A DNA stretch of 64,000 nt from Agarophyton chilense (taxonomy: Eukaryota > Rhodophyta > Florideophyceae > Gracilariales > Gracilariaceae), in assembly GCA_030374765.1 (NCBI GenBank), contig JARGXX010000098.1, positions 310,001 to 374,000 of the forward strand, written 5' to 3'. How positions within the stretch are numbered: the stretch's first letter is position 1; each line of letters begins with the position of its first letter. The notes below the pieces were generated by a model that was not told the DNA's origin, searched no databases, and was given only the letters and a program-made list of their open reading frames with translations. Position numbers and translations under genes: made by a program. Shown here in pieces: positions 32,311 to 64,000 of this stretch.

Positions 32311-33829
32311 CAAAAATGGTTTTCGTTAAAGTCAATTCGTCAGAATTCGGCATCCGACTCGCAAAATTCTAACACTTAGAATCAGTTTTCTGAAAAATCG
32401 ATATAATAGAAAACTGTTTGGATAGTAGTAATGGACCTGGTTGTTGGAATTTAATGGGTTTTTGGTCTAGGATTAATTTTTGAGGAGTGGGGGTGAGCTG
32501 GCTAGGACTTGATTATCTTTTTGATTAAGTCGTTCGGATGCCATCGTGTTGTAGTTTAAAAAACACTTTAGCTTCGTATTAAAAATTTAAATGTCAAAAA
32601 AAAATTTATATTGGGCGATATAAGCAAGAAGTTTCTTTTTATAATTTTCGTATACATGTGTACAGCTTTGCGCGTAGAAATTAGACATACGAAAATATAC
32701 ATTTCTATTTAAGCAGCAAATACTTTCGTATACTTATCGTATTGGTATTTTCTGTAAGTACCAGATTCAGCTCCGTGCGCTGGCGCGCTTCTTTGGGCAA
32801 CACTACGCTTGCACACCTGAATATGCACCTCATACCGCCGCGCTTGCGTCGAAATCCACGCCCATGCGACCACACGTTACGCAGGTGATCCCTTTGTCGC
32901 CGCGCACAGCGGTGCCGTCCGAACCTTCGTTCGCACCGACGGCGTCGTTTGCACGGACGCCGACGTTTGGGACCACGCCGGCGGTTGTGCCGACGCCAGC
33001 GTTTGCCCTCAAGCCAGATCTTGCGCCTATGCCGGCGTTTGCGACCAGGCGTGCGCTCGTGCCCGCCGCGCCGGCCCCGTGCTGCCGCGCTCGCTACAGG
33101 AGCATGGATTACGGCGCATCAAAAACTGACTCTCAGCTCAAGGGTCGCGTCGGCGGTAGGGCGACAAGATCAAAAGTCTGGCGGATCACCTGCCTGAAAC
33201 CAAGCACGATATTGAAGCCCACTTTGCAGCTGTACCACCGCGGCCAGAAACAAATAGTGGTTGCAAAGAAGTTTGGAGGCAGCAACGGCGCATGCAACGC
33301 ACGATTCATTGCACGGAAGTAAAGAGTTAACCATGGCCCCCACGTTGTGGGACGGCGAAACTTCTCAAACGTCTTGATGCGCCTGCGTAGAGAAGCTGGT
33401 GCAACATCAGATACTGCAACTGGGCGCGCAATCGGCTGTGTCACAAACCCAAGAACGCTGTGTCACCGAAGCGCAAGTGGTTTCGGTGCGTGTGCTTTAT
33501 GGCAACGAATGCTTGCCGGAACGAATATTCTTTGACGACGAGAATCTGATATTGATGAAGCAAGCACACGACTTTGACGGTGTATGCGCAGAGGCACATA
33601 ACGCTTCGAGACTACTAAAGAGGCTACGGACACTGACTGGCAGTGGCAAACCGGGCTCTGGCGCTAAAAGCGGAAGTGCAGCGCGCAGGGCGACGATGGT
33701 TGTGCTGATGGGAGTGCAGATGAAGCAGTATGGGATACAGCTGAAGCTGGATTCAAATAGAAACGAAACTGCAGATCAAGCCCTTCAGACCAATACTGAT
33801 GAAGTGCAACAAAATTTGATGGCCTGAAT
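32311..33829. other. Region left of element B, unrecognised frames
   Basis: AT-rich to about 32.75 kb, then GC-rich. The frames 32,864-33,322 (+, 152 codons; an N-terminal imperfect repeat of PTPAFALKPD type rich in Pro, Ala and Thr) and 33,399-33,827 (+, 142 codons) are open but not recognised. Element B is inserted just after the second one (target duplication at 33,830). They may be remnants of a host gene or transposon accessory ORF. Confidence 0.3.
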
Positions 33830-33834
33830 GTAAG
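33830..33834. other. Target-site duplication, left copy (element B)
   Basis: GTAAG immediately left of the 5' LTR, repeated at 42,795-42,799 immediately right of the 3' LTR. Five bases is the usual Ty3/gypsy target duplication. Confidence 0.85.
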
Positions 33835-34457
33835 TGAAGTATTCTGCTCCGTCGGAATGCCGATAGAAGATTTTTTTTGGTTAAGTATGATGATACTCAT
33901 GAGTGAGTGCAACGGCTAGGATGAAGTTATGAAGCGGCATCCCACAGATGGTCCGTGACGTGGTATGGTACACGTCGGACATCGGTCTGCCGCAGCGCAT
34001 CCGATTCGACCCTTTTGTAGGGAAATACCGGATTGGCAACGGCGCATATACCGTAGTGAGTAGCCACGTGGCAAAAATTATCCCGTACTGTAGAGGGGTT
34101 AATCGGCTAACCAAGTTCATATCTAGATATTTTTATGTGCGGGCGCTCACCTCTTTGCACTGTACTTAAGGCAGAGAAGGGAGCGCCGACTCCAAAGTAA
34201 AAGAGAAAACAAACGGGTTCACAACTCAATTGTTCCTTGTTCAGTATTCCTTAACAGGAGATCCGGACAAGCTCTACAACAAGTAGTTGTCCGTTCAATG
34301 GTACCAACCACCCTCATTGGTGAGTGGGGCCTTACAACCCCCATTTTAGCTCGCTAGTGTTGTGCTCTACCACACCATCCCCTTAGCCACAAGCACTCAT
34401 TCGGCAGTCCCGAATACTGTTGCAGGTGTCTGCTCTCTCCGTGGAGCGGGTATTACA
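33835..34457 (+). repeat. 5' LTR of element B
   Basis: 623 bp, TGAAG...TACA, matching 42,176-42,794 with scattered substitutions and a few small indels. It is followed two bases later by the primer-binding site. Confidence 0.9.
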
Positions 34458-34459
34458 AG

Positions 34460-35227: not shown

Positions 35228-35670
35228 CCCACAAGGTGGAAGCAACGCCCAAAGGGCAAACGACCCGCATCAGTCGGGAAACTAAGTGAGGAAAACCCTA
35301 GGGAGTCGGCTCTATTCCATTGCGTAGAGCCGACCAGGGAGTACTCGCCTATTTGTTTCCGCACTTGGAGTCATAAGGTCTTGATGAGGACTCATCACAT
35401 TCCATCCAGCGGATTGAATCCGTCTGTTGGAAAGAGAGTACAGTTTGACCATGAACTCAAACGTTCTTAGAGACGTTATAATTGCCCTTCGAAACGGGAA
35501 AAGTTTATTATGATAATGCAGAAGAGGAACTATAAAGTTTATGCCGACATCGGCTCGGAAAAGGGTTTATTGACCCCCGCCCGACAGTTCCTGACCTAGG
35601 CGCCTGACCGAACTATATTCGGATATCCGAACTAGGACCCACCGATCAGGAACAAATTCGTTACGGTCTG
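35228..35670 (+). pseudogene. Degenerate protease N-terminal region of element B
   Basis: RNYKVYADIG near 35,530 aligns with RNYKVFAYFG of element C pol. The following protease active site (LDTGA in C) reads LTxAP with a stop here, so the catalytic aspartate is gone. Multiple frameshifts. Confidence 0.5.
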
Positions 35671-38600
35671 TTGCCGGGTACCCGAGATGCTAATAGGAAT
35701 GCAGTGAGAACACTTGGAACAGTGAAGTTGCTCGTTCGACTCGGACACTTTTTAGTGAAGGTGACGTTTATTGTCTGCAAGTCACTGGCAGCACCAGTTG
35801 TTCTGGGGTGTTATTATTGTGACAGATTTGTCGAAGCAATCGGCCCCCGGAGTCGACTAGTCACGTTAGACGATGGCTCGGAAGTGCCAATAGTAAGAAG
35901 AACACTACGAAGAGTCTCTACAGCTGCTCCACTTCCACCCTCAATTGAATACAAGTTGCTCGTGGTTGTACATCACCAAAGATTCGTATGTCGAAACCTA
36001 CAGTGTTTAAGGCTCAATCCCCAACCTGAGTACAAGTGATAACACAACGACACGGACTCGTGGTAATCCAGCCTAATGCTGCGATGTATGAACATCGAGG
36101 ACTTCTCGCAGCGAATGGAATTGCCCAAGTTGAACCGGACAAAACCTCCCGAATACTCATTAGCAACTTTACCGATAATGGTTATCATTTACCGAAGAAT
36201 TAGATTGTTGCAGCTGCTCTGCCGCACCCAATAGCAGTGGTTCCGACTCCTGTCTCTACCTCACAAGTGCTAGAGTTTTCTGAGGTGTGAGACGAATCAA
36301 CTGGCGCATATGAAGGTGCCAGAGAGCAGTTGCCACCGACAGAAGGAGAGAAGGACCCAGAAAAGCTGGTAGAAGAACTAGTTCTCGAGAATGTTCCCGA
36401 AGGATATAAGGAAAGAATCAAACACATGTTGAAAAAGTATGCCTCTATGTGGACTGGATAATTAGGAGAGATCTTCGCTACAGAACATTATATTTATGCT
36501 ATTCCAGGATCTCGTCCCATTTCTCAGCCACCATACAGAGCAGGACCGCGAACTCGTCAGATCGAGGAGGACAATGTTGCCAAGATGCTCGGAGCAGGAG
36601 TAATAGAAGCAGCACAATCTACTTGGGTTGCACCTGTGGTGTTAGTCCCAAAACCTGATGGTTCTTTACGATTCTGTATCGACTATCGGAAGCTCAGCGC
36701 AGTTACGATACGAGATACATATCCATTGCCTCCGATGGACGAGAGTATAGACAGCCTAGGCAGTGCGAACTTGTTCACCACACTTGACGCCAACACTGGC
36801 TATTGGCAGGTTCCTGTAGCCGAAAAAGATCAGGATAAGACTGCATTTGTGTCACATGCTGGACTATACCGTTTCAAGCGGATGTCCTTTGGACTTACCA
36901 ATGCTCCGGCAACTTTCCAGCGCGCCCTGGACATATTACTCTCGAAGTATAAATGGAAAGCATGTTTAGTCTATTTGGACGATGTCATTTTCTTTTTTCA
37001 AGATATGAAAAGTCATATGCAACATGTGGAGGAGATCCTCAAAGCGATGCAGACAGCAGTTATAACCTTGAATTTCAAGTAATGAGAATGGTTCGCTGAT
37101 CCTCAAAACGTTGCAGACAGCAGTTACAACATTGAATTTCAAGTAATTCGAATGGTTCGCTAATACTGTGAAGTATTTGGGCCACATAATTAGGCCTGGT
37201 CAGCTTAGAATTCATGAAGCTCAGACAGCGGCATTCCGCGAATCGCAATCACTGTCCAAACAGACCCAAGTGCGATCCTTCCTTGGTTTATGTAACTTCT
37301 ACAGACGATTCATACAACGCTACTCGCACATTGAAACTCCACTGAACACATTGTTTCGTAAAAAACAGACTGTTAAGCTCGGGGAATTCAGACTCGCCGA
37401 ACACGAAGCCTTCAATACTTTGAAGAAAAACCTCGTCACAGCCCCAATCTTGGTACTTCCCAAACCTAATCTACCCTATTCTTTGGATACCGACTCCAGT
37501 GAGTATCAGGTAGGGTGTGCCCTTTTTCAGACCCATCCGGACCGTCAGAGAAAACCAATCAGTTACTGGTCACGAACGCTGAACGATGCAGAGAAGAGTT
37601 ACTCCGTATCAGAAAAGGAACGCCTTGCGGTAATGTGGGCGCTGACAACTTTAAGACCCTATCTCCAGGGAGAAACGTTTACCATCCATACGGATCCTTC
37701 GTCCCTACGATGGTTAATAACAATAACAGACCAATCCGGGAGATTAACAGGCTGGCGCTTACGACTATCTGAATTCGATTTCGAAGTTCAGTATAAGAAG
37801 GGACTGGCTAACATACAAGAAGACGCTTTTTTGCAATTGGAAACGTTAGGAGAAACCCAAGGAGAAATCGATGACGATTTACCGTGTTTCTCAATGGAGA
37901 TGAACGAAGATGAAACGCAACTGGAAGATCAAGAAGATGAAGGAGACTAAGCCCAATTGGACTGTCTCATAGCAACCCATGGAACTGAAACTCATGGTCA
38001 ACTCGAGCATATCTCGATCACTGAGCTCTTCAATGAGCAGCGATACGCTCTCGTCTTAACGGGGGGGGGAGGATTTTCCATTTTCGCTCGATTCACGAGG
38101 TATATTGCTCAGACATGTCGAGAAGCATGATCAAATCGTGGTTCCGCACGCTTTGAAGAGTCGTGTACTTTACTTGGCACATTATGCGAAGCTATCTGGA
38201 CACCCAGGAGGAATAAGGTTGTTTATGACCCTAAGAAGGGACTTCTATTGGCCAATTTTGGCAATGGACTGCCATGCTACGGTAAATCTATGTAGACCGT
38301 TTGCAATGAATCGCGTGGAACTATATAAGAAGAGGAAAAAGATAGCCCTATTCCCGGCGAAGGCGCCTCTACAATTCGTCAGCATCCACATACTGGGAGA
38401 GCTAATTCGTTCCAATCAAGGATATCACTACATACTGTTAATTACGGATCGATTCTCAAAACTTGTACAGACTGTACCGTTGAAGAGGATAACCGCTTCG
38501 GTAATAGCTCAGGCTTTCATCAAACACTGGGTTTATGTGTACGGACCGCCGGAAGTGCTGCCATCAGATAATGGAAAACAGTTTGTCGCTAAGTTCTTTC

Positions 38601-40200
38601 AGAACGTATGCCGAATATTAGGCCTCAAGAACGTGTTTACCACGACCTACCATCCACATTGAAATGTTCAGGTGGGACGCTACAACCGTACGCTATTATC
38701 CGCTCTTCTGCATTACATTGCGGATCACCCGAAGGAGTGCGACATGTACGCAGACACACTCTGTTATGCGTACAACACGCAAGTGCATACGTCTACCAAG
38801 GCGCCTCCTTTTGATCTCGTGATATCACATAGCCCACCTTCACTGCCTATGAGGTTGGATGAAGTCGAGGAAGACAAACCGACACCGGCGAAGAACCATC
38901 AGAGGTGGAGAAACGACCTGAGGTTTAGAACAGATCAAGCGGCTCGAGAATTGGCGAAAACGCAAGCGTGTTACAAACGTAATTCGGACTCCCGACGTCG
39001 AAGATAGGTGTCAGATCTCAGGGTAGGAGGATACGAGTTTGTCAGCGTGGAACGACTTGAGAAGCAGGATGGACGACGTCACAAAGTGCTACCGGTAGCA
39101 TCCGGACCTTTCAAGGTAATGGAACTCACCGATGAAACGGTAGTTCTGAAGACAGGAGAGTACGTTCAACGATTTTCGCGCGATTGTCTTGAAACCGCAC
39201 CAGACAACCAAGAAACCCAGGAAACTGAGAAAGAAAGAACTGTCTATCCGCAGGAACGGGAGCTACCCGTCGAATCAAACGATCCGCTTCCCGTGGCACA
39301 AGGCGCTGACACGGCTCGCGATCTCCCACTGCGCGGAAGTACAGTGGCATCCAATGGCAATTCTCCGAAAAATCTGAATAGGCTCCTTGGCAAGAGCCAG
39401 CAATCTGGTAAGACCACAGTACCTGATGATAGGAAAGATATTTTCAAATTTGGTCCAATTAGATCCGGTCCAGAAGCGGCTGCACACCCACCATCACACG
39501 TTCAAGTGGAACTATCAAGTGAAACCCCACTCGCTGAGCGATCGCGCTTGGCAGCCGACCGAAAAGAAGAAGGCGAAGATGAAGCTAAACATCCATTGGT
39601 GGTGGATGCACCCCCCGCGGAACTCTCGGGGAAGAAGCCCAGTTTGGCTCAGAACCCTCAGAAGGACAGAGAGAACAAGAAACGTGAAGAAAAACGGATA
39701 GCCGTAGACCCGACGACTGTTCAGTCAGAAGCCGAGAACGACGCCACAGAAACACAAGGAAGCCCTCACCTGTCCGAACAGACTACGCAGGTTCAACCTG
39801 AAGATATAGGGAGTTCCCAAGCGCCCTCTCGAGAGATTCAAGGAAACCATAACGTTTTCATATCCCGTCAGGATTCAACGCGTTCGTTTGTCAGACGGTT
39901 TAAGCCGGTTAACCGAAACCTCGTGCCATCCGCCGAAACGTTGGGAAATGCCCAAGAATGCGTCATGGATCGCATCATCGATCAAGGCGAAGACGAAGAC
40001 ACCCACAGACTACTGTATCGTATCCGTTTGTACATTTTCCTCCGGAAGCCGATACGTGGGAGCCTATAATTCATATTCCGCGCTCGCAGGTTGTGCGTTA
40101 TCATCGTCGCATTCGACTATCACTCCCTGCAGAGATCGACACCGGGCTGATGGGCTTTCTAGACGCGACTACGCGGAGCGACTGCTAATTCCGTTTCCCC
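35671..40200 (+). pseudogene. Ty3 pol of element B (protease end to chromodomain)
   Basis: Pieces in order: second half of protease 35,671-36,039 (APVVLGCYYCDRFVEAI); RT 36,585-37,082 (FCIDYRKLSAV, TTLDANTGYW, catalytic VYLDD at about 36,970-36,985); RT end and RNase H 37,168-37,950 (TDSSEYQVGCALF); integrase 38,105-38,662 (FVSIHILGEL, where the first aspartate is His; PSDNGKQF) and 38,672-39,007; C-terminal linker and chromodomain 39,008-40,069, continuing in another frame to about 40,130 (EADTWEPIIHIPRSQVV). A 64-bp tandem duplication at 37,034-37,161 breaks RT just after the catalytic box. The integrase GNGQVER equivalent is interrupted by a stop near 38,660. Inactive. Confidence 0.85.
37034..37161 (+). 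repeat. 64-bp tandem duplication inside RT of element B
   Basis: Two adjacent copies beginning GATCCTCAAA (37,034 and 37,098) and running through GCAGACAGCAGTTA to GAATGGTTCGCT, with a few differences. 64 is not a multiple of three, so it shifts the pol frame, and each copy holds a TAA. Confidence 0.8.
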
Positions 40201-40450: not shown

Positions 40451-42052
40451 CTAAGAGGATTTTCTCAACGCTGCAAAAAAGGGATCCTCCGCATCGCTCG
40501 GTTGTTGGGCGAACCCATGATGGTATCTCATCGACGGGTTGACACCTGATGTCGTAGCCGTTGGTGGCGAGGCAGCCGTCGCAGGCGCAGTACCGGATAG
40601 TTCGGGTTCATCCTCGAAATCGAGTTCTGCATCAGCACCTGGAGCTTCTTCACACTCCTGATCTGCAAACTCAAAAGGTGTGTACTCGTACAAATATACA
40701 GTACGCTGATTTGGAGGGAACTCCCTAGGATTCGCACGAAGGTCACGAGCCTGATCAGACATGATTATCTGGCTGGTCCAGGGATTGTAGCATACAAAGT
40801 CTCCAGCATTAGCTGTGCGTCCTGGCGAATGATCTCGATGGCGCACCCTCGTGCCTCTAGCTGATTGCTCCAATGGAACCTCATGCCAGTCGATACTGTC
40901 GATCAAGTCTACCAAGAGTAGGAATTCGTCATGATTGGCACGGGACCCCGACACAAGAGAAAGATCGAGCTGTCTCGCATATCTCCGAGCTGTTGGCGAC
41001 ATGTATCAAACCCGATAGGTCTTGTATGTATCCCGGAGAATACAGGCTGCCATCTTGGAAATGAACTCGGAGATCACGACAGTCCAGTATCCCGAGAACG
41101 GGTCTTTGATCAACGCGGAACCGATATAGGTTTTGGCAGGAGAAAGCTCCCCCGGACATCCACGAGGGATCTAGATCTCCGCCCAGTGTTATGGCAGCGC
41201 GACATAGCGTCCAACGCGAGCATTCCACCTAATTCGTTCAATCTCTATCATTTGGTATGGGACCAGGTATCCCAAGCGAAATCTCGTAGGTCGTTCCCAA
41301 CGAGGATAATCCCAGTATGGAATGTCTCTCTTATGGAGGAAGCGGAAGTCCGCACGGAGCAATGGCCGGCGAAAACAGAGTGCCGCGTTGCGTACATCGC
41401 GTAAACCGTGCCATTCGTCGACGTCGACTTCGTATAAGGACTCGATGTACGAGTATCCTTCGCAATTCGTGCGAGCCATCCAGCGATCCAGATTCCAATC
41501 TCCAGTGAGCACGACTGTGCTAATGAACCGGTGCACTCGCTGGTATATCAGCTTGGTGAACCGAGTTGGGGCTTCGTCCATACTTTCATTGGTATACCGG
41601 GCAATCGCGGTATCTGGCAAGGCGCAGTGAGTAAGCCAATCGTGGCTGCGGATAGCCGCATACGAAAGGCCGTCCGGAAAGTAACCGCGAAAAACGTATC
41701 GGTTGATCAACGCATCATCGCGAAGAGCGACTGGGTCAAACCAGGGAGCCTGCGCCAAGAAGACAGCATCGTCGAGAGGGTCTCGTCCCACCAAGTCCGC
41801 GGGATGTGGATAGCTGCGTTGAGCCCGACGAGACGGCGCTTGAATGATTCCAGCGGAAGATACATAAGCCGTATTCGACATCACACCTGAAACCGAAGGC
41901 TGTAAGGGCAAAGATTGGAAACTCACGCGAGGAGACCGCCTTGATCGGAAGACCGAAGGCGCCGTAGCATGCGAATCGAAGCCACTGCTGGCGTCAGGAC
42001 CCTCGGAGGGTACGTCTCCGTTGTTGGAATTGTGCGGCGCGTAGGGGTTCAT
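40451..42052 (-). pseudogene. Antisense ORF (aORF) of element B
   Basis: On the strand opposite to gag-pol, one 534-codon frame starts at ATG 42,052 (MNPY...) and ends at 40,451. It stays in a single frame but is interrupted by TAA at about 41,189, TAG 18 bases later and TGA at about 41,006. The equivalent codons in element C are GCT, GAG and TGG, so the stops are recent changes. Layout: Ser/Pro-rich N-terminus (1-85), a basic-aromatic conserved domain (about 90-290) ending in LVPYQMIEIERIR with VGRYVALP, a second conserved block (GYWTVVISEF; about 315-400), then an acidic and Pro/Ala-rich tail. No transmembrane segment or known catalytic motif is visible. Function unknown. It probably has its own promoter (TATA at 42,125). 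Confidence 0.75.
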
Positions 42053-42173: not shown

Positions 42174-42175
42174 TG

Positions 42176-42794
42176 TGTAGTATTCTGCACTGTCGGAATG
42201 CCGATGGAAGATTTTTTTTGGCTAAGTATGATGATACTCATAAGTGAGTGCAACGGCTAGGATGAAGTTATGAAGCGGCACCCAGCAGATGCTCCGTGAC
42301 GTGGTATGTTACGCGTGGGACATCGATCTGCCACGGCGCATCCGATTCGACCCTTTGTGGGGAAATACCGGATTGGAAACGGCGCATATACTGTAGTGGG
42401 TAGCCACGTGGCAAGCATTATCCCGTACTGTAGAAGGATTAATCGGCTAACCAAGTTTATATCTAGATATTATTATGTGCGGCGCTCACCCCTGTGCAAT
42501 GTACTTCAGGCAGAGAAGGGAGCGCCGACTCCAAAGTAAAGGAGACAACAAACGGGTTCACAACTCAATTGTTCCTTGTTCAGGATTCCTTTACCGGAGA
42601 TCCGGACAAGCTACAACAAGCAGTTGTCCGTTCCATAGTACCAACAACCCTCATTGGCGAGTAGGGCCTTACAACCCTCATTCTAGCTCGCTAGTGTTGT
42701 GCTCTACCACACCTTCCCTTCAGCCGCAGGCACCCATTCGGCAGTCTCGAATACTGTTGCAGGTGTCTGCTCCCTCTGTAGAGCGGATAATACA
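42176..42794 (+). repeat. 3' LTR of element B
   Basis: TGTAG...TACA, direct repeat of 33,835-34,457, directly followed by the right GTAAG duplication (42,795-42,799). A strong polypurine tract precedes it. Confidence 0.9.
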
Positions 42795-45300: not shown

Positions 45301-46217
45301 AGCGCTAGAAACTCGAGAGAGGAAGAGATTTAGTACTGCTTTGCACAGCGTTTATGTGTTCCCCAATTATGGGAGATGGGCATGGCGTGCAGAATCCGCT
45401 TTTAGTAAGCTGGTATCGTGTGAATCGGTGAAACGAAAGCGTTTACGCTTTTTTTCTGGTCAGCAGGAGGAGGAAGCCTTGTTGTTGCGCACGGAGACAC
45501 CGGCGATGGTGTGACAGCAGGAGTGGAATCAGGGGTGGGAGGTGCGGGAGATGTAGGCCAACGGAAGCCATTTCGGGTTGTGGGAGAGGTGGTGTTGAGG
45601 TGGTTGTCATCATGGTCGGGACATACGAAATAGTTTTGGTGAGATCGGCGCAGCTCACGAGAATTGGTACGCAATATTGGTTCATTTTTCGTGTGACTGC
45701 TATTGGTGTGAAACGTGGCATATGTGGCTCGGATATTTTCACGAAGTTTTCCGTTGCTTAAATGCTCTATTGCCAATATTAGTTAGAATGCGACGCGTTG
45801 TAGTACGAGCGTAGCGAGCTGTGCTGGTTGTGCACACTGGTTTTGAAACGTATGAAGAAACGACACAAAGCGAGCGCGAGTGGAAGCGGCGCGGTGTAAT
45901 GCATGGCGAGAGCGCAGCGACCGCGAACGGGGCGCGTTCGCCGCGCGCATTCGCACGCACAGCCCATGCGGTGCGCAACGCGGCCAATGAGCGCAAGCAC
46001 ACCAGCGCCGCAGCCTCCACTCGAACGCCGCGCGTGTGCGCCCCGCCCCGCACCGTTGACGCCGTTGGCGCCGCCCCCGGTGCTCCCTCACGCTTCATTC
46101 TTCAACCGACGCTGCCGCCGCCACCATCGCCGTCGTGCCTGCCGCGCGCCTACGTCCCCTTCCCCTCCCCCTCCCCCTCCCTTCCCACCCCCCCCCTACC
46201 ACCTTCGCGGCGTGGTG
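45301..46217. other. Upstream region of the phosphatase gene
   Basis: No confident gene in 45,301-45,900. From about 45.85 kb the DNA turns very GC-rich. 46,110-46,205 is a C/T-rich tract directly before the chosen start of the phosphatase and is probably its promoter or 5' untranslated region. The phosphatase frame stays open up to an ATG at 45,903, but that part encodes only Arg/Pro-rich low complexity. Confidence 0.4.
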
Positions 46218-47297
46218 ATGTCGATGAGCGCAGCGACTGCGGGTGCGGCGGGCGCGACGGGCGCGGCGTCGCCGCCAGCAGACGCCGAGTGTGCGACCAC
46301 CGCAGCCGTGGTGGCGGCAGCGGCGGCCGGAGCGCAAGAATGCGCCGCCGCTTTGTTGCAGCAAAACCAGCAACAGTGCGCAACAAGAGGCGCGCGGGCG
46401 GCATCGTCGCTGCCGCGCGCACTGGACGCAGTGGACAAGCTGGTGGCGCAACTGGCGCGCCAGCGTCGCCGCGTGGTGTTCTTCCTGGACTATGACGGCA
46501 CGCTGTCGCCCATCGTGGAGGACCCGGAGCGTGCAGTGCTGCCTGAAGAAACGCGACACGCGTTGCGCATGATCTCGTCGCGCTTCACAACGGCCATTGT
46601 GTCGGGTCGTTCCAAGGACAAAGTACGCGCGCTGGTGGACGTGCGCGGGCTTATCTACGCCGGGTCGCACGGCTTCGACATCGAGGCGCCACACGGAGAC
46701 GTGTCACATCGCGTGGCAGCGGAGTTTGTGCCCAAGCTACGCGCGGCACGCGGCGAACTCACACGCGCGGCGCGCTCGCTGCAGGGCGCCACGGTGGAGG
46801 ACAACCTGTTGGCTGTGTCTTTCCATTATCGACGGTGCGCGGCGCAGTGCGCGGGCGAGGTACGCGAGTTGGCGGAGCGCGTGGCCAGACAGCACGGGCT
46901 GCGACTGACGCACGGCAAGAAGGTGTACGAGCTGCGGCCGCAAATCGACTGGCATAAGGGCAAGGCCGTCGAGTATTTGCTGCGCGTGTTGCAGCTGGAG
47001 GGCGCGCACGTGCTGCCCATCTACATCGGCGACGATACCACGGACGAGGATGCCTTCAGCGTGTTGCGCGCGCGCGGACTGTCCATTGTGGTGGACGACG
47101 GAGCCGCGCCGCGCTCCACCATGGCCGACCTTCGTCTGCACGATCCGGACGAGGTGTGCCGCTTCCTGTTGCGCTTTGCCGACGACGCGCTGGCCGAAGC
47201 GCAGCTGCAGCACGTGGCGCCGACGCGTCGCGACCGCTCCCCACATTCTCTCCCTCTCCCTCATCCTCTTCTTCATCATCGTCATTCTCCTCAGTAA
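46218..47297 (+). CDS. Trehalose-6-phosphate phosphatase
   Basis: A 359-residue HAD-superfamily phosphatase that removes phosphate from trehalose-6-phosphate to give trehalose. Motif I is FFLDYDGTLSPIVEDPE (nucleophile D91 and general acid D93). The motif II region is AIVSGRS (about 127-132), and SHGFDIE follows at 150-156 as in plant and bacterial TPPs. The DWHKGKAV block (about 244-251) contributes the conserved Lys. The metal-binding motif is YIGDDTTDEDAF (269-280). I chose the ATG at 46,218 because everything upstream is Arg/Pro-rich low complexity; a start at 45,903 would give 464 residues. Residues 1-60 are Ala/Gln-rich and may be a leader. No TPS domain is fused. The 3' end overlaps the convergent methyltransferase by seven bases. 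Confidence 0.9.
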   Translation: MSMSAATAGAAGATGAASPPADAECATTAAVVAAAAAGAQECAAALLQQNQQQCATRGARAASSLPRALDAVDKLVAQLARQRRRVVFFLDYDGTLSPIVEDPERAVLPEETRHALRMISSRFTTAIVSGRSKDKVRALVDVRGLIYAGSHGFDIEAPHGDVSHRVAAEFVPKLRAARGELTRAARSLQGATVEDNLLAVSFHYRRCAAQCAGEVRELAERVARQHGLRLTHGKKVYELRPQIDWHKGKAVEYLLRVLQLEGAHVLPIYIGDDTTDEDAFSVLRARGLSIVVDDGAAPRSTMADLRLHDPDEVCRFLLRFADDALAEAQLQHVAPTRRDRSPHSLPLPHPLLHHRHSPQ

Positions 47298-48283
47298 AGT
47301 CGCAGCAGCCGCCGCAACTCGCAGCGCGCCCCCCGCCCGCACAGCCGCCACAGTCGCCCCAGCCGCGCGCGAACGCCCCGCGTCAGCAACGCGCGTCGCA
47401 CCAGTATCACGTCCGTCTGCAGCCAGCGGAAGCCGCCGCGCCGCTGCGCGTCGCACAGCCACGCGCTCCACGCCCCCAGCTTACGTCCCCTCTGTCCCCG
47501 TCGCCCCTCCGCCACAAAGCTACGTCGCACCAACGGCACCTCCGTCGCCGCGCTCTCCGCGTCGCGCTCTGTCATGCCCCACGGCGCAAAGTCGAATGCT
47601 GCAAAGTCCTTGCGCAAAAGCTCCAGCAACTCACCCCCGCGCGCGTTGCACGCAATCATCTCCACCCACACCGACGCCACCGCGCGCGTCGCCAGCAACC
47701 GCTCTGCCCCGCGCACCACCGCCAGTTCGTCGCCCTGCACGTCCACCGACAGCACCGCCAGCCGCTGCCCGTCGCGCACTACGTTGTCCACGCGCCCCAC
47801 GCGCACCGTCTCGAGCACGCGCGCGTTGTCATAGCGCACCTCCATCGCGCCGCGCGACGCGTTTCCCGCCGCCATGTGCTCCACTTGCAGCCGCCAGTGC
47901 GCGTTTTGCGGCAGCGTCGCTACGCGCCGCACGTGCTTCGCAAACTTGGTTGCCGCCTCAAACGCAAATACGCGGAAGCCGGCGTGTGCTAGCGCGAACG
48001 CCTCGCCGCCCCACTCCACGCCCACGATCGCCGCCCCGTCCCCATGCGCCCGGAACAGCTGCGCCAGCGCCACCTTCATCGCGTCCGAGTGGAACGCGTA
48101 GTGCGACAGCGCTTGCCGCTGCAGCACCGTCCCCATGTACCCCATCCCAGGTATCGGCTCGGGTGCGATCGCCGCCAACACCGCCGCCGCCAGCACCACC
48201 GTCAGCACCCCCAATGCCGCCCTCGCCGTACGCCGCCTCATTGCCGCTGTCTTGCCGATCGTCCTCATCGCCGCGGTCGCCAT
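47291..48283 (-). CDS. FkbM-type SAM-dependent methyltransferase, membrane-anchored
   Basis: A 330-residue protein. An N-terminal hydrophobic helix (ALGVLTVVLAAAVLAAIA, about 23-40) after a basic stretch suggests a signal anchor into the secretory system. The Rossmann-type SAM fold starts at AAIVGVEWGGEAFALAHAGF (85-104) with the acidic end FAFEA. LSVDVQGDELAVVRGAERLL (178-197) is the typical FkbM block. FkbM enzymes O-methylate sugars and other small molecules; the substrate here is unknown, but sulfated polysaccharide methylation would fit a red alga (inference). The C-terminus is Arg/Leu-rich. It is convergent with the phosphatase (stops overlap by 7 bp) and divergent from the HCF173-like gene, 168 bases away. 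GC content is high. Confidence 0.8.
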   Translation of the reverse strand: MATAAMRTIGKTAAMRRRTARAALGVLTVVLAAAVLAAIAPEPIPGMGYMGTVLQRQALSHYAFHSDAMKVALAQLFRAHGDGAAIVGVEWGGEAFALAHAGFRVFAFEAATKFAKHVRRVATLPQNAHWRLQVEHMAAGNASRGAMEVRYDNARVLETVRVGRVDNVVRDGQRLAVLSVDVQGDELAVVRGAERLLATRAVASVWVEMIACNARGGELLELLRKDFAAFDFAPWGMTERDAESAATEVPLVRRSFVAEGRRGQRGRKLGAWSAWLCDAQRRGGFRWLQTDVILVRRALLTRGVRARLGRLWRLCGRGARCELRRLLRLY

Positions 48284-48363
48284 CGCGAGACCGCAGTCTC
48301 AGAAGCAACACCAAAAAATCTCAACTCTGTAAATTTGACTCCAACCGCGCTGTATCCCCCGCC

Positions 48364-48370
48364 TTTAAAA
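48364..48370 (+). promoter_or_regulatory. TATA-like element of the HCF173-like gene
   Basis: TTTAAAA about 80 bases before the chosen ATG (48,452), within the 168-base gap shared with the divergent methyltransferase. Pyrimidine-rich DNA follows, as expected of a short 5' leader. Confidence 0.4.
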
Positions 48371-48451
48371 ACTCTCAATCTCCCTCACAGCTTCCGCCTC
48401 CGTCTCCAACAGCACTCACCTTCACTTCACTCGAAACCCCCCCACGTACCA

Positions 48452-50176
48452 ATGTTGCTCTTCCTCACTCCCGTCAACCCGCTCTCCGCCCGCCGCGGCG
48501 GTCTCACCCTCCCGCTCCGCGCTACAGCTCCGCGCCGTCCGCCGCCCGCGCCGCCCGCGCCGTCAACCCCAGTCATGGCCTCGGAACAAACCCAGCCGTG
48601 GCCCCTCTCGCGATTTCTGCGCACCGCCATGTTCTACTCCCCACTAGGCAAAATGCTGCGCCCCGGCGGACCGGATCCGGTCGCCGACTTCCGCCGCCGC
48701 GCCAGAAAGCTCGTCAACAGCGCCAGGCGCCCCGTTTACCTCGTCACCGGCGCCAACGGTGGCTCCGGCCGCCGCGTCGTGCGCAACCTGCTGCGCCTCG
48801 GTAAAAAGGTCCGCGCCCTCACCAGGGATCGCGACCGTCTCATCGACGCCCTGCTCATGGTCGGCGTTGATGCTGTTGAACAGGAGACTAGCGGCAATCT
48901 GCACATTTTCGTTTCTGACCTCTACAACGTCAGAGAGGAGCTTTTTGAAGACGTCGTCGCTATCGCCAGCTGCACCGGCACCAGGGTGGGGCCTCAGGAC
49001 GACCCGGATCGCTCCAAGTACTTTCAGGGCGTCCAATTCTACCCCCCGCTCATTCTCGACGACATCCCGGAAAACGTAGAATATCGCGGCGTCAAGAACC
49101 TGGTCGAAGCCGCCCGAAAACATTTTGACTCCATCAACAAGGTCGAGACCGTCCCGCTTCTCGACATTAACGATATGGAAAAGGTCAAAGCCCAGTGGGG
49201 TGAACTGGATGATGTCGTCATGGGAGGCGTCAGCAGCAGCAATCTCACCGTACAAGACGACCAGCTCATCTTTTTTGGAGTCGTGTCCACGGCCAACAGA
49301 GGCGGCTTTACATCCGTCCGCACCGTCGCCTTTGACACCCCTATGGACCTCAGCGACTACAACGGCATTGATCTCAGAGTTAAGGGAGACGGCCAGAGTT
49401 ACAAGCTCATCGTTCGATGTGACCAAAACTGGGATGGCGTTTCTTATTCTTACACCTTTCCCACCGTAAAAGACGTCTGGGAAGAGGTTCGTATTCCCTT
49501 CACCGAGTTCCTCACCGTGTTCCGTGCCAAGATTTTGAGAAGCGGCAAGCCCATCAACCCGAAACGCATCTTTGTCTTCCAGATCATGCTCAGTAAGTTT
49601 GAATACGATGGAGAGCTCAACGACAATTTCAAGCCCGGAAACTTCGAGCTTTGCATTAGTTCCATCAGCGCCTTCAAAGAACCAGAAAGTGCCCGATGTC
49701 CCAAGATAGTGCACATCGGCTCGGCCGCCACCACACGCCCCCTTCGCACCGATGAGCAATTCGACGAAGTGCCACCGGCTGTCAAGCTCAATGAGCAGCT
49801 TGGGTGCCTTCTGAACTGGAAACTGGCCGGCGAGGACTCCGTGCGCATTTCGGGCGTGCCGTACTGCATTCTCCGACCCACGGCCTTGACGGAGGAAGAA
49901 ACCGTGGGGCTCGACCGTCTTGTGTTTGACCAGGGCGACAACATTACCGGACGCGTCGGTCGTGATGATGTTGCTGATTTGATCGTTAAGGCGTTTAACA
50001 CCCCACAATTGACAAATGTAACAGCAGAGGTTACCATTGCTGAGGACGATGTGCACAGTTTGGATGCTGCTGAGCAACGATTCCAGCAACTCAAGCCCGA
50101 CCAAGAAGAGACCCGATCGTATGCTCCGTTTCCTTACGTTCCGGAAGGTAGCCCCTCCCAAACGACCGCCGTTTAG
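48452..50176 (+). CDS. HCF173-like SDR/CIA30 protein, probably plastid
   Basis: 574 residues from ATG 48,452; the frame is open further upstream, but that part is antisense to the methyltransferase. The first 45 residues are rich in Arg, Ala, Pro and Ser with almost no acid, like an organelle transit peptide. An atypical short-chain dehydrogenase fold begins at PVYLVTGANGGSGRRVVRNL (94-113; TGxxGxxG nucleotide-binding loop). A CIA30 domain is inserted at about 235-420 (QWGELDDVVMGGVSSSNL, RGGFTSVRT, YKLIVRCDQNWDGVSY). The SDR part resumes at GVPYCILRPTALTEEE and GRVGRDDVADLIVKAF. This SDR-CIA30-SDR order is that of plant HCF173, which is needed for psbA mRNA translation in the chloroplast. 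Function by homology only. Convergent with endonuclease V. Confidence 0.8.
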   Translation: MLLFLTPVNPLSARRGGLTLPLRATAPRRPPPAPPAPSTPVMASEQTQPWPLSRFLRTAMFYSPLGKMLRPGGPDPVADFRRRARKLVNSARRPVYLVTGANGGSGRRVVRNLLRLGKKVRALTRDRDRLIDALLMVGVDAVEQETSGNLHIFVSDLYNVREELFEDVVAIASCTGTRVGPQDDPDRSKYFQGVQFYPPLILDDIPENVEYRGVKNLVEAARKHFDSINKVETVPLLDINDMEKVKAQWGELDDVVMGGVSSSNLTVQDDQLIFFGVVSTANRGGFTSVRTVAFDTPMDLSDYNGIDLRVKGDGQSYKLIVRCDQNWDGVSYSYTFPTVKDVWEEVRIPFTEFLTVFRAKILRSGKPINPKRIFVFQIMLSKFEYDGELNDNFKPGNFELCISSISAFKEPESARCPKIVHIGSAATTRPLRTDEQFDEVPPAVKLNEQLGCLLNWKLAGEDSVRISGVPYCILRPTALTEEETVGLDRLVFDQGDNITGRVGRDDVADLIVKAFNTPQLTNVTAEVTIAEDDVHSLDAAEQRFQQLKPDQEETRSYAPFPYVPEGSPSQTTAV

Positions 50177-50810: not shown

Positions 50811-51791
50811 TCATGGGTTGGAAAATCGGTAGTCACTAGTGTGCTTCGACGATGTGAACTGCTCTTTTTTGAACAAGTCGTTTTTCTCACCCCTGAGAAA
50901 AGCTCGGGAGTGCATGTCTGCGAATCGGACAGGGGACGGTACTCGATAGTCACAAAGGGCAACAACAAGACGGGCTGAAGTCGGCAGAGATACTCTGTGG
51001 CCTACCGAAACGTAGATTGGTTTGCTTTCCGCGTTTCCAGTCAAAATCGCCTTTCCCCACACGAACCCACTCTTTCCAATCACATCGACTCCCTTTGGCC
51101 CACTGGAGGCTGCCTGCTCGCGCAGGATGCTGTCCTCGAGGCCGTCAACGTAGAGCAAACTCTTAGACACCCCGATGCATGGAATATCCTCACTCACTCC
51201 GACGTGGCATGCGAGACCAGCCTTGCGCGGATGCAGGACACCATTCCCATCAACCAACAAACAATCAATGCTTCTACGAACCTGCGGAGGAAGTTGTCTT
51301 AAAAGGGTGGATACGACTGGGCCCTCTCGAAACCCCAAGAAGGTTGGTATGTATGGTTGTGCCATAGTAACCTCGCATGACTTTGAAAACACAAGCTCAT
51401 GAGAAGAGTCTGAAAAAAGCTTCACAACTGTGACAGTTCCAATCGCCAAGTCTTCGCTGGTGGAAAACGATACATCAGCTCCAGCCACGAACAAGTCCCT
51501 GTCAGCCTCGAATCCGTCTGGTGAGAAGTAACGACCCCAGCCGTTATTGTCATCGGTGCAATCGACGCTCTTCGCTATTTCTTCCTCGGCTGCTATCCAT
51601 GAATACAACAGTGATACTTTGTCCTGACTGCCTGAACTCATTCGAGAAAGACGCGCTGAAATTAAGTTCCGGTGATACTGTTGGCGGATGCACAAAGAGG
51701 TGAAAACAACGGGGCGCGAGGAAACCCTTGTGAGATAGCTACGCACACTTGCAAGTAATGGCGTAGCGCTTCGGAAGCGTGATGTCCTCAT
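50811..51791 (-). CDS. Endonuclease V (deoxyinosine 3' endonuclease family)
   Basis: A 326-residue protein with the full endonuclease V core. VAGADVSF (102-109) supplies the first catalytic Asp (D106). PYIPTFLGFREGP (146-158) is the hallmark strand. CLLVDGNGVLHPRKAGLACHVGV (177-199) holds the second Asp (D181) and the His/Arg/Lys residues. CIGVSKSLL (205-213) and PIYVSVGHRVSL (about 257-268) follow. The family cleaves near inosine in DNA or RNA. Residues 1-50 are basic, Ser-rich and acid-free, which suggests mitochondrial or plastid targeting; M51 (MSSGS) could give a second, untargeted form. The C-terminal 35 residues are a basic extension beyond the core. Intronless, convergent with the HCF173-like gene. 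Confidence 0.88.
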   Translation of the reverse strand: MRTSRFRSATPLLASVRSYLTRVSSRPVVFTSLCIRQQYHRNLISARLSRMSSGSQDKVSLLYSWIAAEEEIAKSVDCTDDNNGWGRYFSPDGFEADRDLFVAGADVSFSTSEDLAIGTVTVVKLFSDSSHELVFSKSCEVTMAQPYIPTFLGFREGPVVSTLLRQLPPQVRRSIDCLLVDGNGVLHPRKAGLACHVGVSEDIPCIGVSKSLLYVDGLEDSILREQAASSGPKGVDVIGKSGFVWGKAILTGNAESKPIYVSVGHRVSLPTSARLVVALCDYRVPSPVRFADMHSRAFLRGEKNDLFKKEQFTSSKHTSDYRFSNP

Positions 51792-53430: not shown

Positions 53431-54961
53431 CCTTGAAGGTGTCCGAGGCACTCCGCTGACCTTGTAGGTGATCGGTGCGAGGAATCATCGGCCACGTAAC
53501 TCCGGGCGAGCAACCATCCAGGTGTTGTCAGCCACGTATATTGTTGACATGTACCTTTTGGATGAGTAATTGTTAGTGATAGTAATTATAATTATGCGTA
53601 TTTTAGTACAGTAGTTGAGTGGCCACCTGGCACTGTAGCCAGTGCTGGCCAGGTCTCTGGCACTAGGTCAGAGACCGTTCCTTGCTGGCACCTCCCGGGT
53701 GATCTGGAAAGTGCAGTCCACTGCATATAGGGAACTGCACCTCCCCCATCCTTATCTGATAAAGGCAGGCATCACTTGGTGAAGGACGATGCCCTTCAAG
53801 GGGGTTCCATCCCAGGACTTAGAAGTTTCGCTCGATTGAGGACTAGCTTGGGCTATGACACAACTATACCGCTATTCGGTGCCGACGGCCGGTTAGAACC
53901 GGAGGTGCACACTGGTGGAACACGTGGACTGCACGGATGGCGACGCTCGAGTACGAGGCGTGCCACACGTGGCCCGGACTGTACCTAATGGTTAGTATTA
54001 TTTAGTAATTTTTAGTATTTATTTAGCTACGCTATCGCTATTTAGTGTGGAGCAAAACCCGGCGACGGGAAGTGCTTTCAAGGTGTTCGAAGCCTTGCTC
54101 CCTGGGGGAGGCAGACTCAGAGACAGAGCCCTCCGTTCCACCCGTAGTGTGGGGTGTAACTCCCACGGGGGATTCCGGCAGTACCGACGGAGGTGAGGGG
54201 TAGAAACCGTTGGATCGGGAATGGGTATGGGTATCCCAAAGAATGGGGGAAAATCCGGCGAAGAGGAAAAACGGGGCGAGGGTCGGGCACTAACAGGCAC
54301 CGGACCCGAGAACCAGAAAAGGGGCGAAACAACAAAAGAAACCCAATACAGGGGCGAAAACCTGTCCTCGAAAGGAAACACAAAAAGCACGCAACAAGTA
54401 AGCAGAACCCCCACGGGGTATCGTGCACGCAGGTCGTCTGAGCGGTCCCAAGGGGGTGGTTGCACGGAACCCAAACGTGGGCACTCTCCAAGTGGAGTCG
54501 TGTCCCTACGCAGGCGTTGCTAACCAGAGCCCGCTCTGGGTTGTAAGGCCGAAACGATGGCGACGAAGAACCTCTAAAGGTATCGAAGACCAACCTTGGT
54601 TACCATTTACTCTGAGCTTCGGACTGTCAGATCTCATCTCCCTAAGTAGGGCCCACTAACTAAACTCTACAGTAGTGCACACCTGCTCAGGGCCATACAC
54701 GTGGAGATCCCACTGTCAGGGCCCAAAAGTCCAACGTTCTAACAAATATCCGAAAATCGGTGCCAAAATTAAGCCACGTGTATCACGGGGCCAATCCAAC
54801 CATGGACCATCCGAATTGTCACTTCATAGGCGAACTCTAACCAGAAAACAGTGCCACCTCAGCACACCTTAGAGGGGATCATAGTCATAACCCTCGGAGG
54901 GCTCAATCCTCATTCTATGAGTTGCATCTTCAAGTATCCCCTAACTGGGCGTTGCTCTACA
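53431..54961 (-). repeat. 3' LTR of element C (outer boundary not resolved)
   Basis: The inner edge is clear: on the minus strand the polypurine tract AAGGAGGGGGAGA is followed by TGTAGAGCAACG at 54,961, a standard LTR start. The other LTR is outside the window, so the outer end cannot be fixed; it should lie between about 53.4 and 54.3 kb. A possible polyadenylation signal (AATAAA on the minus strand) is at 54,018-54,023. Frames inside it (for example 54,019-54,593 on the minus strand) are treated as non-coding. Confidence 0.5.
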
Positions 54962-55171: not shown

Positions 55172-56898
55172 ATGAACCCATACGTCCTCAACCCACTCTC
55201 GGGGCCATCGGCCTCCGCGCCGGCGGAAAACGAAGCTCCCCAGCAATGTGGATATTTCTCCGGTTTGGATGCGGCTCCGTCAGGTACCGAACCTTCCGCC
55301 TCGGCGAGCAACCGACATCCTCAGGAGGATTTGGACATTAACGCGGTGGCGTGGAACTCCGCTCATGCGATGCCCTTGGTAGCAAACTCCAGAGGTTGGA
55401 TCTCAAACGAATCCTTTCGAAGGTGGAGTCCCCTTACCGATCCGGTGATGTATTCCCGCGCTCCGTGTTCCATCCGACAGCGGTTCGCGACGATGAGCTC
55501 ATCGACTCCTACGTGGAGGACGGCTTATTGCCGGGTGGCCTACCTTTCGAGGTTGTACGTTCTCCCGATTGGAGGGCGCGGGTAGCCATAGAGCCTCAGT
55601 ATCTATACCGCGGTCGCGGGGAGTCCCTGGACAAGGCGCGCGCAGCGATGGCGGCTCTGGCCTACCAGCTATTGGAGAGGTCACGCTTTGACCATCTGGT
55701 TCCCCCGGAGTACGGGTTCGATGTCGCCTATTACCGCACGTACGGTGAGGTCTCCTACGGGGATAACCTGGCAGCCTTTCCCGGAGCCGAGTTCCGCGGA
55801 CCGGGTTTTCCTCTCCGAGAAGATATGCTCCAATGGAGTCGTCCCATCCTTCGGGCTGAATTCAGGTACCTTCAACGGCAGTTTACCCAGTATGGGTTCG
55901 ATCGACGCGTGCGCTTCGAGCGCCGCTCGCGCTCCCGTTTCGGGATCCTTGTCCCGTATCCTCACGTGGAACTGGAGCGTATTCGTAACACGGCGAAGGT
56001 TGGGCGATTCGTGCCCCTTCCAGCTTGGTGGAGTAAGGTCGAGGTCCCCCGAGGGTGATTTGCTGAACTGCCCCCATGCATCTACTATATCGGGTCTCGT
56101 TTGATGCACGACCCGAACTCGGGATACTGGGCCCTCGTTGCAGCCGAGTGGGCAGCCCGCGTAGCGGCGCACCTCCTCTGGGATGCTCATGACCATTTCC
56201 GTATCTGGTATATTCCTCCGATGCTACGGACCATCATGCGTCAGATCGACCTTGTCCCAGCGTTGGTTTCGGCCAGCAGCGTGCAGGACCTGTATCCAAT
56301 CTTGGACGTGATCGACAACACCCAATGGGATCGAGTTCCAGTGGAAAATCAGCCCGCAGGGGAAGGATCCGCGCGAGACAAGTCTCCTGGCCGGTACGAT
56401 CCGGGCTCCGGTAACTGGGTCTATTACAATCCGTTCGTAGGGGTTCGCATCAGCGCGGCGCAAGCACGGGCGCTGATTGACTCGCCTCGACCGATGCCTG
56501 TGGGACACCCGACGGGGTTCATTTGTACCGACGATTACGAGTACGAGCCTCCCGTAGACCTGGACGATCCAGCGTTGGATAACGACATGCCAGCTCCTAG
56601 TGGAGTACTCCCTGTGGAGCCATCTGCACCCTTCCAACCAGTGGGAACGACCTCAGCTGCGGCGGCGAATGCATCCGGTGGCGGTCCATCTGCTCCCCCC
56701 GGGTGGGGTGTGAACACCCTTGCGCAGGCGCCGGTTGCCACTCCGCAAGCGGATAGTGTGCGACAAGGCCTCGTGAACGCGGGCATTCCGATTCCCCCTG
56801 GTATGACGGATGTGAGCCAGATGTTGGCTTTCGCCTCGGCGTACCATCAGGGTCAGAATCCCAACGGTGGGGCGGGTCCCTCCTCGGGCTTTCCGTAG
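55172..56898 (+). pseudogene. Antisense ORF (aORF) of element C
   Basis: Opposite to gag-pol of element C and starting about 210 bases inside the 3' LTR edge. MNPY at 55,172 matches the start of the B aORF. The frame is open upstream to 55,004, and ATG 55,043 is an alternative start. A one-base shift near 55,460 moves into the frame 55,351-56,058. After a TGA at 56,056-56,058 (Cys codon TGT in B) the same frame runs on to 56,898. Conserved blocks with B: PTAVRDDELIDSYV, GLLPGGLPFEVVRSPDW, LVPYPHVELERIR with KVGRFVPLP, GYWALVAAEW, and MRQIDLVPALV. The tail is Pro/Gly/Ala-rich and longer than in B, giving about 575 codons. No known domain. Convergent with pol across a purine tract. Confidence 0.75.
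56722..56754 (+). repeat. 33-bp direct repeat, copy 1
   Basis: It sits in the tail of the aORF and matches 58,090-58,122 in 31 of 33 bases, beginning GCGCAGGCGCCGGTTGCCAC. Confidence 0.8.
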
Positions 56899-57580: not shown

Positions 57581-57866
57581 CCCGGTGGGTTCTTTTCCGT
57601 GTTGCGAGCGAGTCTCAGCACTTCGTCCAAACGGCGCCGAGTGGCCGGTCGGCTACGTTGTAACTTCCGTCTACGGAGTCAAAACGGCCCAGTTTTGGAT
57701 TCTTCTTAAAGCGGAGATCTTCACGATAACAACGGTGTTCTTAGATTTTGTGACGGTTGAGAAACCGCGACACGGTAGCGTCTCCAATCTCAGGGGGGTA
57801 AGACTTCAACGTCAACCCGAGCTACGGGGACGAAGGTTGCTCTTGTGCAACGCGCCGTGCGACGAA

Positions 57867-58066
57867 GGCGGTTTGCGCGACGGTTGGTCGTCAGAGCCTT
57901 TTGATTGGCTCGGTGAGGCGGTTTGCGCGACGGTTGGTCGTCAGAGCCTTTTGATTGGCTCGGTGAGGCGGTTTGCGCGACGGTTGGTCGTCAGAGCCTT
58001 TTGATTGGCTCCGTGAGGCGGGTTGCGCGACAGTTGGTCGGCAGAGCCTTTTGATTGGCTCGGTGC
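57867..58066. repeat. 50-bp tandem repeat, four copies
   Basis: Units start GGCGGTTTGCGCGACGGTTG at 57,867, 57,917, 57,967 and 58,017. The first three are almost identical and the fourth differs at a few bases. It lies between the pol stop and the detached chromodomain of element C. Confidence 0.9.
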
Positions 58067-62780: not shown

Positions 62781-64000
62781 GACCCCACCGAATTCGGTGC
62801 GGCTGCCTCGAAGGGGACCGGTTGTTCCCCGTTCGCGGGTACAAGTTCTGCATCCCTGTCAGCAAGGTGAGCTCGGAGTATCCTTTGTTCCTCATAGGAC
62901 CTACTCGGGACTCCAGCTTTCTCCTCAGGGGTCAGAGCCTCGTACTGAGCGGTAATTCGTGAACCCTCCCGCAGGGGAAATGTGCAGTCTGGTGCTTTGT
63001 GACCACGGAGGTAACACAAATAGCAAATCAGCTCTGCCGGGTTCGGTTGTGGACGTGAATCCATGCGACGTGGTGCTGTATCCCTCCATCCGGGGCGAGA
63101 GAACCGAGCAGCGGTATTCGCAAAAGGTAGCGATGCGGCTGGCACCCTCCGTCCTTGGGTATAGAGTGCAGGGTCTTCATCCGTAGTCGGAGCGGATGTC
63201 GACGGCAACTCAGACGTACCCATAGATTCGGGGTTACTTCCCATGAAGTGAATGTTATCATTGACCCCCACAGGGGCAGGGCCTCCTGCGAGTGACAAAG
63301 ACGAGTTACCTCCATCGGCGAGGAGTGCACGTGTCGGCCGACTCTTTCGGTTCTGCCGGGCACGGAGAGTATCCCCCTCAGCCTGGGCGTACTGAACCAG
63401 TTCCAAGTAGGTCAGCTTGCGCTTCTCTTCCCGATGTCGGGCAACCAATGCCCTTATCGAGGGGTCCAAACCATCCACAAACATGGTGCATCTCTCGTAG
63501 GCGGGGAATAAATTCCCGCATCGGTGAAACGCTTTATTCAAGCGAGTTGAATACACCGTTTCGGTTTCCATCGGCTTCTGCCGCGTATCCCTTAATGCAA
63601 GGATTGCTTCCTGAATCGCATTTCCAGTAGCGTATGACCTCAAGAGGTACTGCACCGCTTCGGGCCAGCACGTGACTCCCCCTTCTGAGGCTCGGGATGA
63701 TCCACGGACGGAGTTGAACTGGTCTTCAGCCATCCCCTTTAAGAAATAGGGTAATGCAAGATACGCTTGCGCTTCACTCATACCGAGGATGTCAGCCTCC
63801 TGGACGAACCTCGCAAGGAAATCGAGCACCAGAATTCGGTCTGTTCCTGTGAACTCCCTCTTCTGTAGGGTGATGCTCAGCCTTTTGATGTAGTCCTTGA
63901 CCTTACCCGTTCCGCGGGATGTTCGATCTCCCGAAGGGTTATCCAACCGGTAATAGCGGTACGAGAGCAGCTTCCGATAGAGAGGATTCGTCGGCTTCAG
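62765..64000 (-). CDS. Gag of element C (partial, N-terminus outside window)
   Basis: An open frame of about 411 codons to the window edge; it continues upstream of 63,946 without a stop, so the start is not seen. A capsid-like region is at left (ILVLDFLARFVQEADI, LPYFLKGMAEDQFNSV, VQYLLRSYATGNAIQEAI). A zinc knuckle CYLCYLRGHKAPDC (C-x2-C-x4-H-x4-C) is at about 62,987-63,030, followed by a tail ending SASKN. It forms particles and binds element RNA. It overlaps the pol frame in the -1 register at its stop codon. It appears intact. Confidence 0.9.
   Translation of the reverse strand: MKPTNPLYRKLLSYRYYRLDNPSGDRTSRGTGKVKDYIKRLSITLQKREFTGTDRILVLDFLARFVQEADILGMSEAQAYLALPYFLKGMAEDQFNSVRGSSRASEGGVTCWPEAVQYLLRSYATGNAIQEAILALRDTRQKPMETETVYSTRLNKAFHRCGNLFPAYERCTMFVDGLDPSIRALVARHREEKRKLTYLELVQYAQAEGDTLRARQNRKSRPTRALLADGGNSSLSLAGGPAPVGVNDNIHFMGSNPESMGTSELPSTSAPTTDEDPALYTQGRRVPAASLPFANTAARFSRPGWRDTAPRRMDSRPQPNPAELICYLCYLRGHKAPDCTFPLREGSRITAQYEALTPEEKAGVPSRSYEEQRILRAHLADRDAELVPANGEQPVPFEAAAPNSVGSASKN
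62768..62774 (-). promoter_or_regulatory. Putative -1 ribosomal frameshift site between gag and pol
   Basis: The minus strand reads G AAA AAC directly followed by the gag stop TAA. Slipping back one base gives GAA AAA CTA AAC TTG, which is the pol frame, open on both sides. It is close to the classic A AAA AAC slippery heptamer. Downstream RNA structure was not assessed. Confidence 0.5.

Follow-up and report, generated by a model that had tools for sequence, protein, structure and literature searches.

Ty3/gypsy elements of the red alga Agarophyton chilense contain an open frame antisense to gag and pol, almost certainly a protein gene under selection in several element families. Copies of it lie in three elements, denoted B, C, and D, of the analysed stretch of 64,000 nucleotides (contig JARGXX010000098.1, positions 310,001 to 374,000; hereafter the window; Table 1). 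The preliminary description of this DNA had assigned the gene to these three lineages; all three indeed share it, and two further families, B2 and E, bring the number to at least five. The elements show reverse transcriptase (RT), RNase H, and integrase in Ty3 order between long terminal repeats (LTRs), an assignment in line with the domains of the C pol, and the closest solved RT to the element RT is that of Ty3. The antisense gene is opposite in strand to pol and tail to tail with it in all five families (B, B2, C, D, and E). Its position between pol and the 3' LTR was observed for B, B2, and C, and the pol side of this position for D and E. From this gene, the elements probably produce a helper protein.

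Table 1. Features located in the window (coordinates in nucleotides from the first position of the window)
Feature	Position	Strand	Basis
Element D integrase part, strand opposite to the D antisense gene	2891..3781	+	pol comparison
Element D antisense gene relic, two frames (6400-5411, 5429-4986)	4986..6400	-	match to E-family protein
Element B 5' LTR	33829..34457	+	repeat pairs; edges read from bases
Element B pol, broken pieces	35507..39205	+	matched to C pol
Element B antisense gene copy, pseudogene	40451..42052	-	ORF and translation reading, blastp
Element B 3' LTR	42174..42794	+	repeat pairs; edges read from bases
Trehalose-phosphatase	45903..47297	+	domain match
CIA30 plus NAD-binding	48044..50176	+	domain match
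Endonuclease V	50811..51791	-	domain match
Element C 3' LTR, approximate	54046..54960	-	mapped from L064 396-1317
Element C antisense gene copy; one frameshift, one internal stop	55172..56895	+	translation, profile scan, genome relatives
50-bp tandem repeat, spacer between converging antisense gene and pol of C	57866..58065		repeat search
Element C pol, open, 1510 aa; RT, RNase H, integrase domains	58230..62762	-	ORF, domain scan
Element C gag, continues beyond the window	62765..64000	-	ORF; PF03732 below its cut-off, E 0.00029

Antisense genes and elements in the window

For element B, a frame of 534 codons had been described between pol and the 3' LTR. The frame and its place are correct, but it is not unbroken: translation shows three internal stops in addition to the final one, leaving open pieces at 41192-42052 (287 aa) and 40454-41005 (184 aa) that share one common frame. 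The window's copy is thus gene-sized but broken, i.e. a pseudogene. Its ATG, at 42052, is located about 120 bp from the edge of the 3' LTR, read at 42174. On the pol side, the RT region of element B contains a 64-bp tandem duplication (37034-37161, 2.0 copies, 90% matches) at the place where its open frame breaks. A stretch of approximately 18 bases just inside the 5' LTR is common to families B and C (34457-34480 in the window, 9430-9475 in the family C copy L064) and presumably represents the same tRNA primer site.

In element C, the MNPY start of the antisense protein is found in one frame and the remainder (55468-56895) in another, with the frameshift near 55.47 kb. The related copy L064 is flanked by LTRs of about 922 bp that are 98.0% identical over 549 bp and 99.5% identical over the other 373 bp, and its insertion is therefore young. 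The distance between its antisense ATG, at 1528, and the LTR is about 210 bp.

The antisense gene of element D had been described as a single frame (4657-6720), which contains many stops. The proposed relationship holds, albeit for two frames between 6400 and 4986 on the minus strand: the E-family protein matches this region at 6400-5411 (36% identity) and 5429-4986 (33%) with an E value of 2.65e-65. The same protein also weakly matches the C copy of the window (55693-56331, E 0.006). A scan of the window with a profile of the C and B2 proteins did not detect the D gene. Applied to six other D copies, this profile scored 16.3 bits for the best one (E 4.6e-6) and 3.1, 2.0, 1.2, 1.1, and -0.1 bits for the remaining five (E 0.04 to 0.36). 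The five low-scoring matches are colinear, on the same strand, and overlap the same profile region; two of them are no better than chance, since the best shuffled control reached 1.1 bits. Several old D copies have a long, open C-terminal part of the antisense frame (L066 1143-1916, L067 1341-1898, L068 1250-1930 on the minus strand, and L069 1361-2050), and this open part resembles the helix-rich end of the E protein.

A further element of the window, family A, spans 7378-15089 with LTRs at 7378-7828 and 14648-15089, and its pol lies close to the 3' LTR. The scan with the C and B2 profile did not find the antisense gene over this element. Mapping from its inverted partner would place the end of pol near 8229; with the LTR edge at 7828, there would be no room for an antisense gene. 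The pol end of family A occurs in two copies of opposite orientation (5-1995 and 7971-9961), which form six inverted-repeat pairs with 82-88% complementarity, and the left copy seems to interrupt element D.

Apart from these elements, the window contains a G+C-rich island (45903-51791, 69% at 46-48 kb) that likely holds host genes, and a frame at 21081-22271 matching Transposase_21 (tnp2), which we take to belong to a CACTA-like DNA transposon.

Families across the genome and selection on the protein

The genome examined comprises 80 Mb in 135 contigs. A query from element C yielded 1620 first-look candidates; each of the 150 that were scored proved to be a match. The B query gave 1394 candidates; the 136 scored consisted of the window itself, 45 rows of 72-84% identity assigned to B, and 90 rows of 61-65% assigned to B2. 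With a piece of a D copy as query, 299 candidates were obtained and 150 scored, D copies ranking top and family E below at approximately 40-47%. Both additional families, B2 with about 61-65% identity to B and E with about 40-47% to a D copy, have long open frames, those of E reaching up to 876 aa. The B2 copy L062 shows LTR matches at both ends. Counting with oligonucleotides taken from C, E, and B2 copies, with up to three mismatches allowed, resulted in 246 places for C, 143 for E, and 223 for B2, the last number possibly including some B copies; reversed-pattern controls gave none. The same genome harbors 15 matches to phycobilisome-family genes, consistent with a red-algal host, 14 of them on contig C39, where two identical-scoring matches in an 892-aa open frame lie approximately 185.7 kb apart, as if this contig held more than one turn of the circular plastid genome.

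Unbroken copies of the antisense gene are present in B, B2, C, and E. Among the fetched loci, which were the best-scoring copies and hence give shares for these copies rather than genome-wide ones, the frame is unbroken from MNPY in 12 of 29 C loci (the window's own C apart) and unbroken in one of 30 B loci (window included), namely L053 with 639 aa and without the MNPY start. The intact copies asked for in the preliminary description therefore exist.

The similarity claimed between the B and C proteins is clearly borne out. Smith-Waterman alignment of the protein halves scored 265 against a shuffled maximum of 62 (z 40.6) and 171 against 60 (z 25.8), with 1000 shuffles each, and blastp aligned both proteins with 37.6% identity over 186 columns (E 3.3e-25). 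The six motifs quoted for the three lineages are readable in both B and C, the MNPY start not being shown for D. At the profile level, B, B2, and C matched D and E with an hhalign probability of 80.7 (E 1.3e-5) over 199 columns in order, placing all five families in one superfamily. A duplicated gag was rejected as the origin of the protein, because hhalign against the gag of the elements gave probabilities of about 0.1 (E 0.56 and 0.61). In a small RT tree (FastTree, 235 columns, Ty3 as outgroup), B groups with B2 (support 0.99) and A with D and E (0.92); C joins B and B2 with a support of 0.12. If the placement of A is right, this family has lost the antisense gene, a conclusion on which a tree of this size is too small to insist. 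A chromodomain was recognized at the pol end of B2 (26.7 bits, cut-off 25.1), and a match below the cut-off in A (18.9 bits); neither the scanned pieces of B and C nor the C pol showed such a domain, and the RT tree contained no reference chromovirus.

Selection is most visible between B and B2, whose antisense genes differ at 0.24, 0.21, and 0.57 of the first, second, and third codon positions, respectively (524 codons). This corresponds to a dN of 0.264 and a dS of 2.43, the latter near saturation, and to a dN/dS of about 0.11. For the RT of the same pair, the differences are 0.15, 0.10, and 0.40 (206 codons), so both genes are constrained and RT more so. The frame on the other strand that shares its third positions with the antisense frame contains 19-37 stops in 16 intact copies (ten of C, two of B2, and four of E), as opposed to none in the antisense frame. 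Together with the excess of third-position differences, this argues for purifying selection on the antisense protein, and an origin of the signal from the sense strand was rejected on the same stop counts.

Within families, dN/dS (Nei-Gojobori, on pairs that are not independent) amounts to 0.52 in C as a ratio of means (66 pairs of 12 intact copies) and to 0.42-0.58 in E (six pairs of four copies), with 0.93 for the single B2 pair. In C, codons 1-50 and 351-400 show dN above dS. Values below 1 in intact C and E copies agree with the selection on the protein that had been suspected from frame conservation. Compared with the copy L063, the window's element C is 93.3% identical in the spacer, 97.4% in the antisense gene, and 97.9% in pol; the differing sites are distributed over codon positions one to three as 8/10/19 in the antisense gene and 35/28/32 in pol. 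Against L064, the antisense gene differs at 7/11/14 sites.

The predicted protein and its possible roles

The predicted antisense protein is approximately 560-680 aa long. The C and B2 proteins, each represented by one copy, possess a Pro/Ser/Ala-rich head, a basic core patch (net charge per 80 residues of +7 in C and +8 in B2), and an acidic tail, in which the net charge falls to -8 and -9 over the same length. The E protein, likewise viewed in one copy, starts with an RG-rich basic head, lacks the acidic tail, and contains one hydrophobic stretch with a mean of 2.09 over 19 residues, compared to maxima of 0.93 and 1.07 in C and B2. Conservation is highest in a stretch that extends from the basic patch, through a P-WW---EVP motif, to a segment containing a conserved Glu. 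As noted before from the translation, no domain is recognized: searches of Pfam, PHROGs, NCBIfam, and PDB sequences produced nothing above noise, with best E values of 0.095 (Pfam), 0.15 (PHROGs), and 0.8 (PDB).

We consider the chances about even that this is an old, conserved accessory gene of a red-algal Ty3/gypsy group, transcribed antisense from or near the 3' LTR and encoding a nuclear regulator of the element. The gene would occupy the strand that does not encode gag and pol, converging with pol and lying beside the 3' LTR. Its mRNA would start on the antisense strand in a short leader or in the 3' LTR, as the ATG is only about 120 bp (B) or 210 bp (C) away from the LTR edge. With less confidence, the protein may act in the nucleus, where it would bind nucleic acids and regulate expression or integration of its own element, as suggested by its charge layout and by the plant analogues, of which gene23 is nuclear and TRP28 is predicted to bind DNA. 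Several findings speak against this model. No recognizable DNA-binding domain was found in the Pfam and NCBIfam scans, the gene is missing from family A of the same group, and none of the B, C, and D copies in the window is intact. Furthermore, the B2 pair with its dN/dS of 0.93 and the two C stretches with dN above dS do not fit well, and the E protein lacks the acidic tail and could be membrane-bound through its hydrophobic stretch. In evolutionary terms, it is an evenly balanced proposition that these elements form an ambisense lineage, which would have gained a third, opposite-strand gene before the five gene-bearing families diverged, with the 3' LTR driving it in reverse direction; the gene would encode a new protein superfamily without known domain, be needed for spread, and have been lost later in A.

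Anti-silencing proteins directed against the host defence exist in plant DNA transposons, and a comparable role here is conceivable but rather unlikely. An accessory gene of a multi-copy element would suit it, as would the change of the protein being faster than that of RT, known from conflict genes (pN between B and B2 of 0.22 versus 0.15 and 0.10 at RT positions one and two); such fast change fits relaxed constraint as well, and no domain or test points to anti-silencing.

It is quite improbable that the gene was captured from a host or virus, or is the remnant of a nested mobile element, and is merely carried along. The origin of such genes is left open in the part of a review drawn on here (PMC7264820), which leaves space for a capture as the first origin, but the same place in five families and the selection on the protein argue against a passenger. 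Likewise, no relatives were found in phages; in IMG/VR, a first search by peptide patterns gave two matches, neither of them a relative, and a second gave none; and 27 pattern matches in bacterial and archaeal genomes included no relative.

An envelope-like protein or one for cell-to-cell spread is suggested by the place between pol and the 3' LTR, the position of env, and by the hydrophobic stretch of E. This role is distinctly improbable given the opposite strand and the C and B2 proteins, which have no comparably strong stretch.

Conservation of an antisense RNA, acting as silencing trigger or RNA regulator with the open frame as by-product, is highly unlikely. Antisense transcripts of LTR elements can form double-stranded RNA, according to the review text consulted (PMC7264820), but the concentration of B/B2 substitutions at antisense third positions is unexplained by an RNA role alone, and both roles can coexist. 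Finally, a chance open frame in repeat DNA, to which the broken window copies of B, C, and D might point, is virtually excluded, being refuted by the shuffle tests and by a codon-position signal in one frame only, with unbroken copies and hundreds of copies in diverged families adding to this.

Antisense genes of other LTR elements

Additional ORFs in antisense orientation between pol and the 3' LTR are described in plants, with Grande gene23 of maize, RIRE2 of rice, Retand ORF4 of Silene, and PvRetro13 of bean as cases named in the consulted part of the review (PMC7264820). They are present in most copies of several families, conserved, and of unknown function; gene23 is nuclear and has its own promoter (PMC7264820). 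These plant genes resemble the red-algal one in orientation and place, in their many copies, in their distribution over several families, and in conservation. For Retand, the excerpted source reports a predicted DNA binding of TRP28 and frequent tandem repeats in the respective regions (PMC11963269); the spacer of element C likewise contains a 50-bp tandem repeat. Retand differs in being a flowering-plant lineage outside the chromoviruses and in having a TRP28 domain, whereas the red-algal elements have another host, no TRP28 match and no match to any family searched, and a chromodomain in one family. Membership in the Retand type was rejected, since PF04195 (TRP28) matched none of 11 and none of 7 members at E values up to 5, within the filters of HMMER; a PF04195 search of the alga's own genome was silent, as were its 14 controls.

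Boty of the fungi Botrytis and Sclerotinia carries an antisense ORF in the same place (PMC7264820, in the part consulted); it belongs to a different kingdom and is likened here by layout, not by sequence. In HTLV, an antisense gene is transcribed from an antisense promoter inside the 3' LTR (PMC7264820, same excerpt), which offers a model for the expression of the red-algal gene; HTLV differs in being a retrovirus, and the likeness is one of layout, with no sequences compared. The preliminary description knew of no such gene in algal elements. The open-access literature searched here agrees: it yielded the plant cases and, through the review, the fungal Boty but no antisense gene of an algal LTR element, and the available sections of studies on Ectocarpus (PMC12477816), Gracilariopsis (PMC3713064), and rotifers (PMC5408684) describe no antisense gene. 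Plants and some fungi thus have known antisense genes of this kind; within the open-access papers searched, both the protein family and the host described here appear to be new.

What role antisense genes play in LTR retrotransposons is still an open question, and most of the examples given in the consulted part of the review come from flowering plants (PMC7264820). In the red alga, a single 80-Mb genome provides five diverged families with hundreds of copies and a clear signal of selection at the codon level. With this material, conservation can be mapped, expression tested, and structure studied, and one can ask whether such genes have a role in common or arose more than once.
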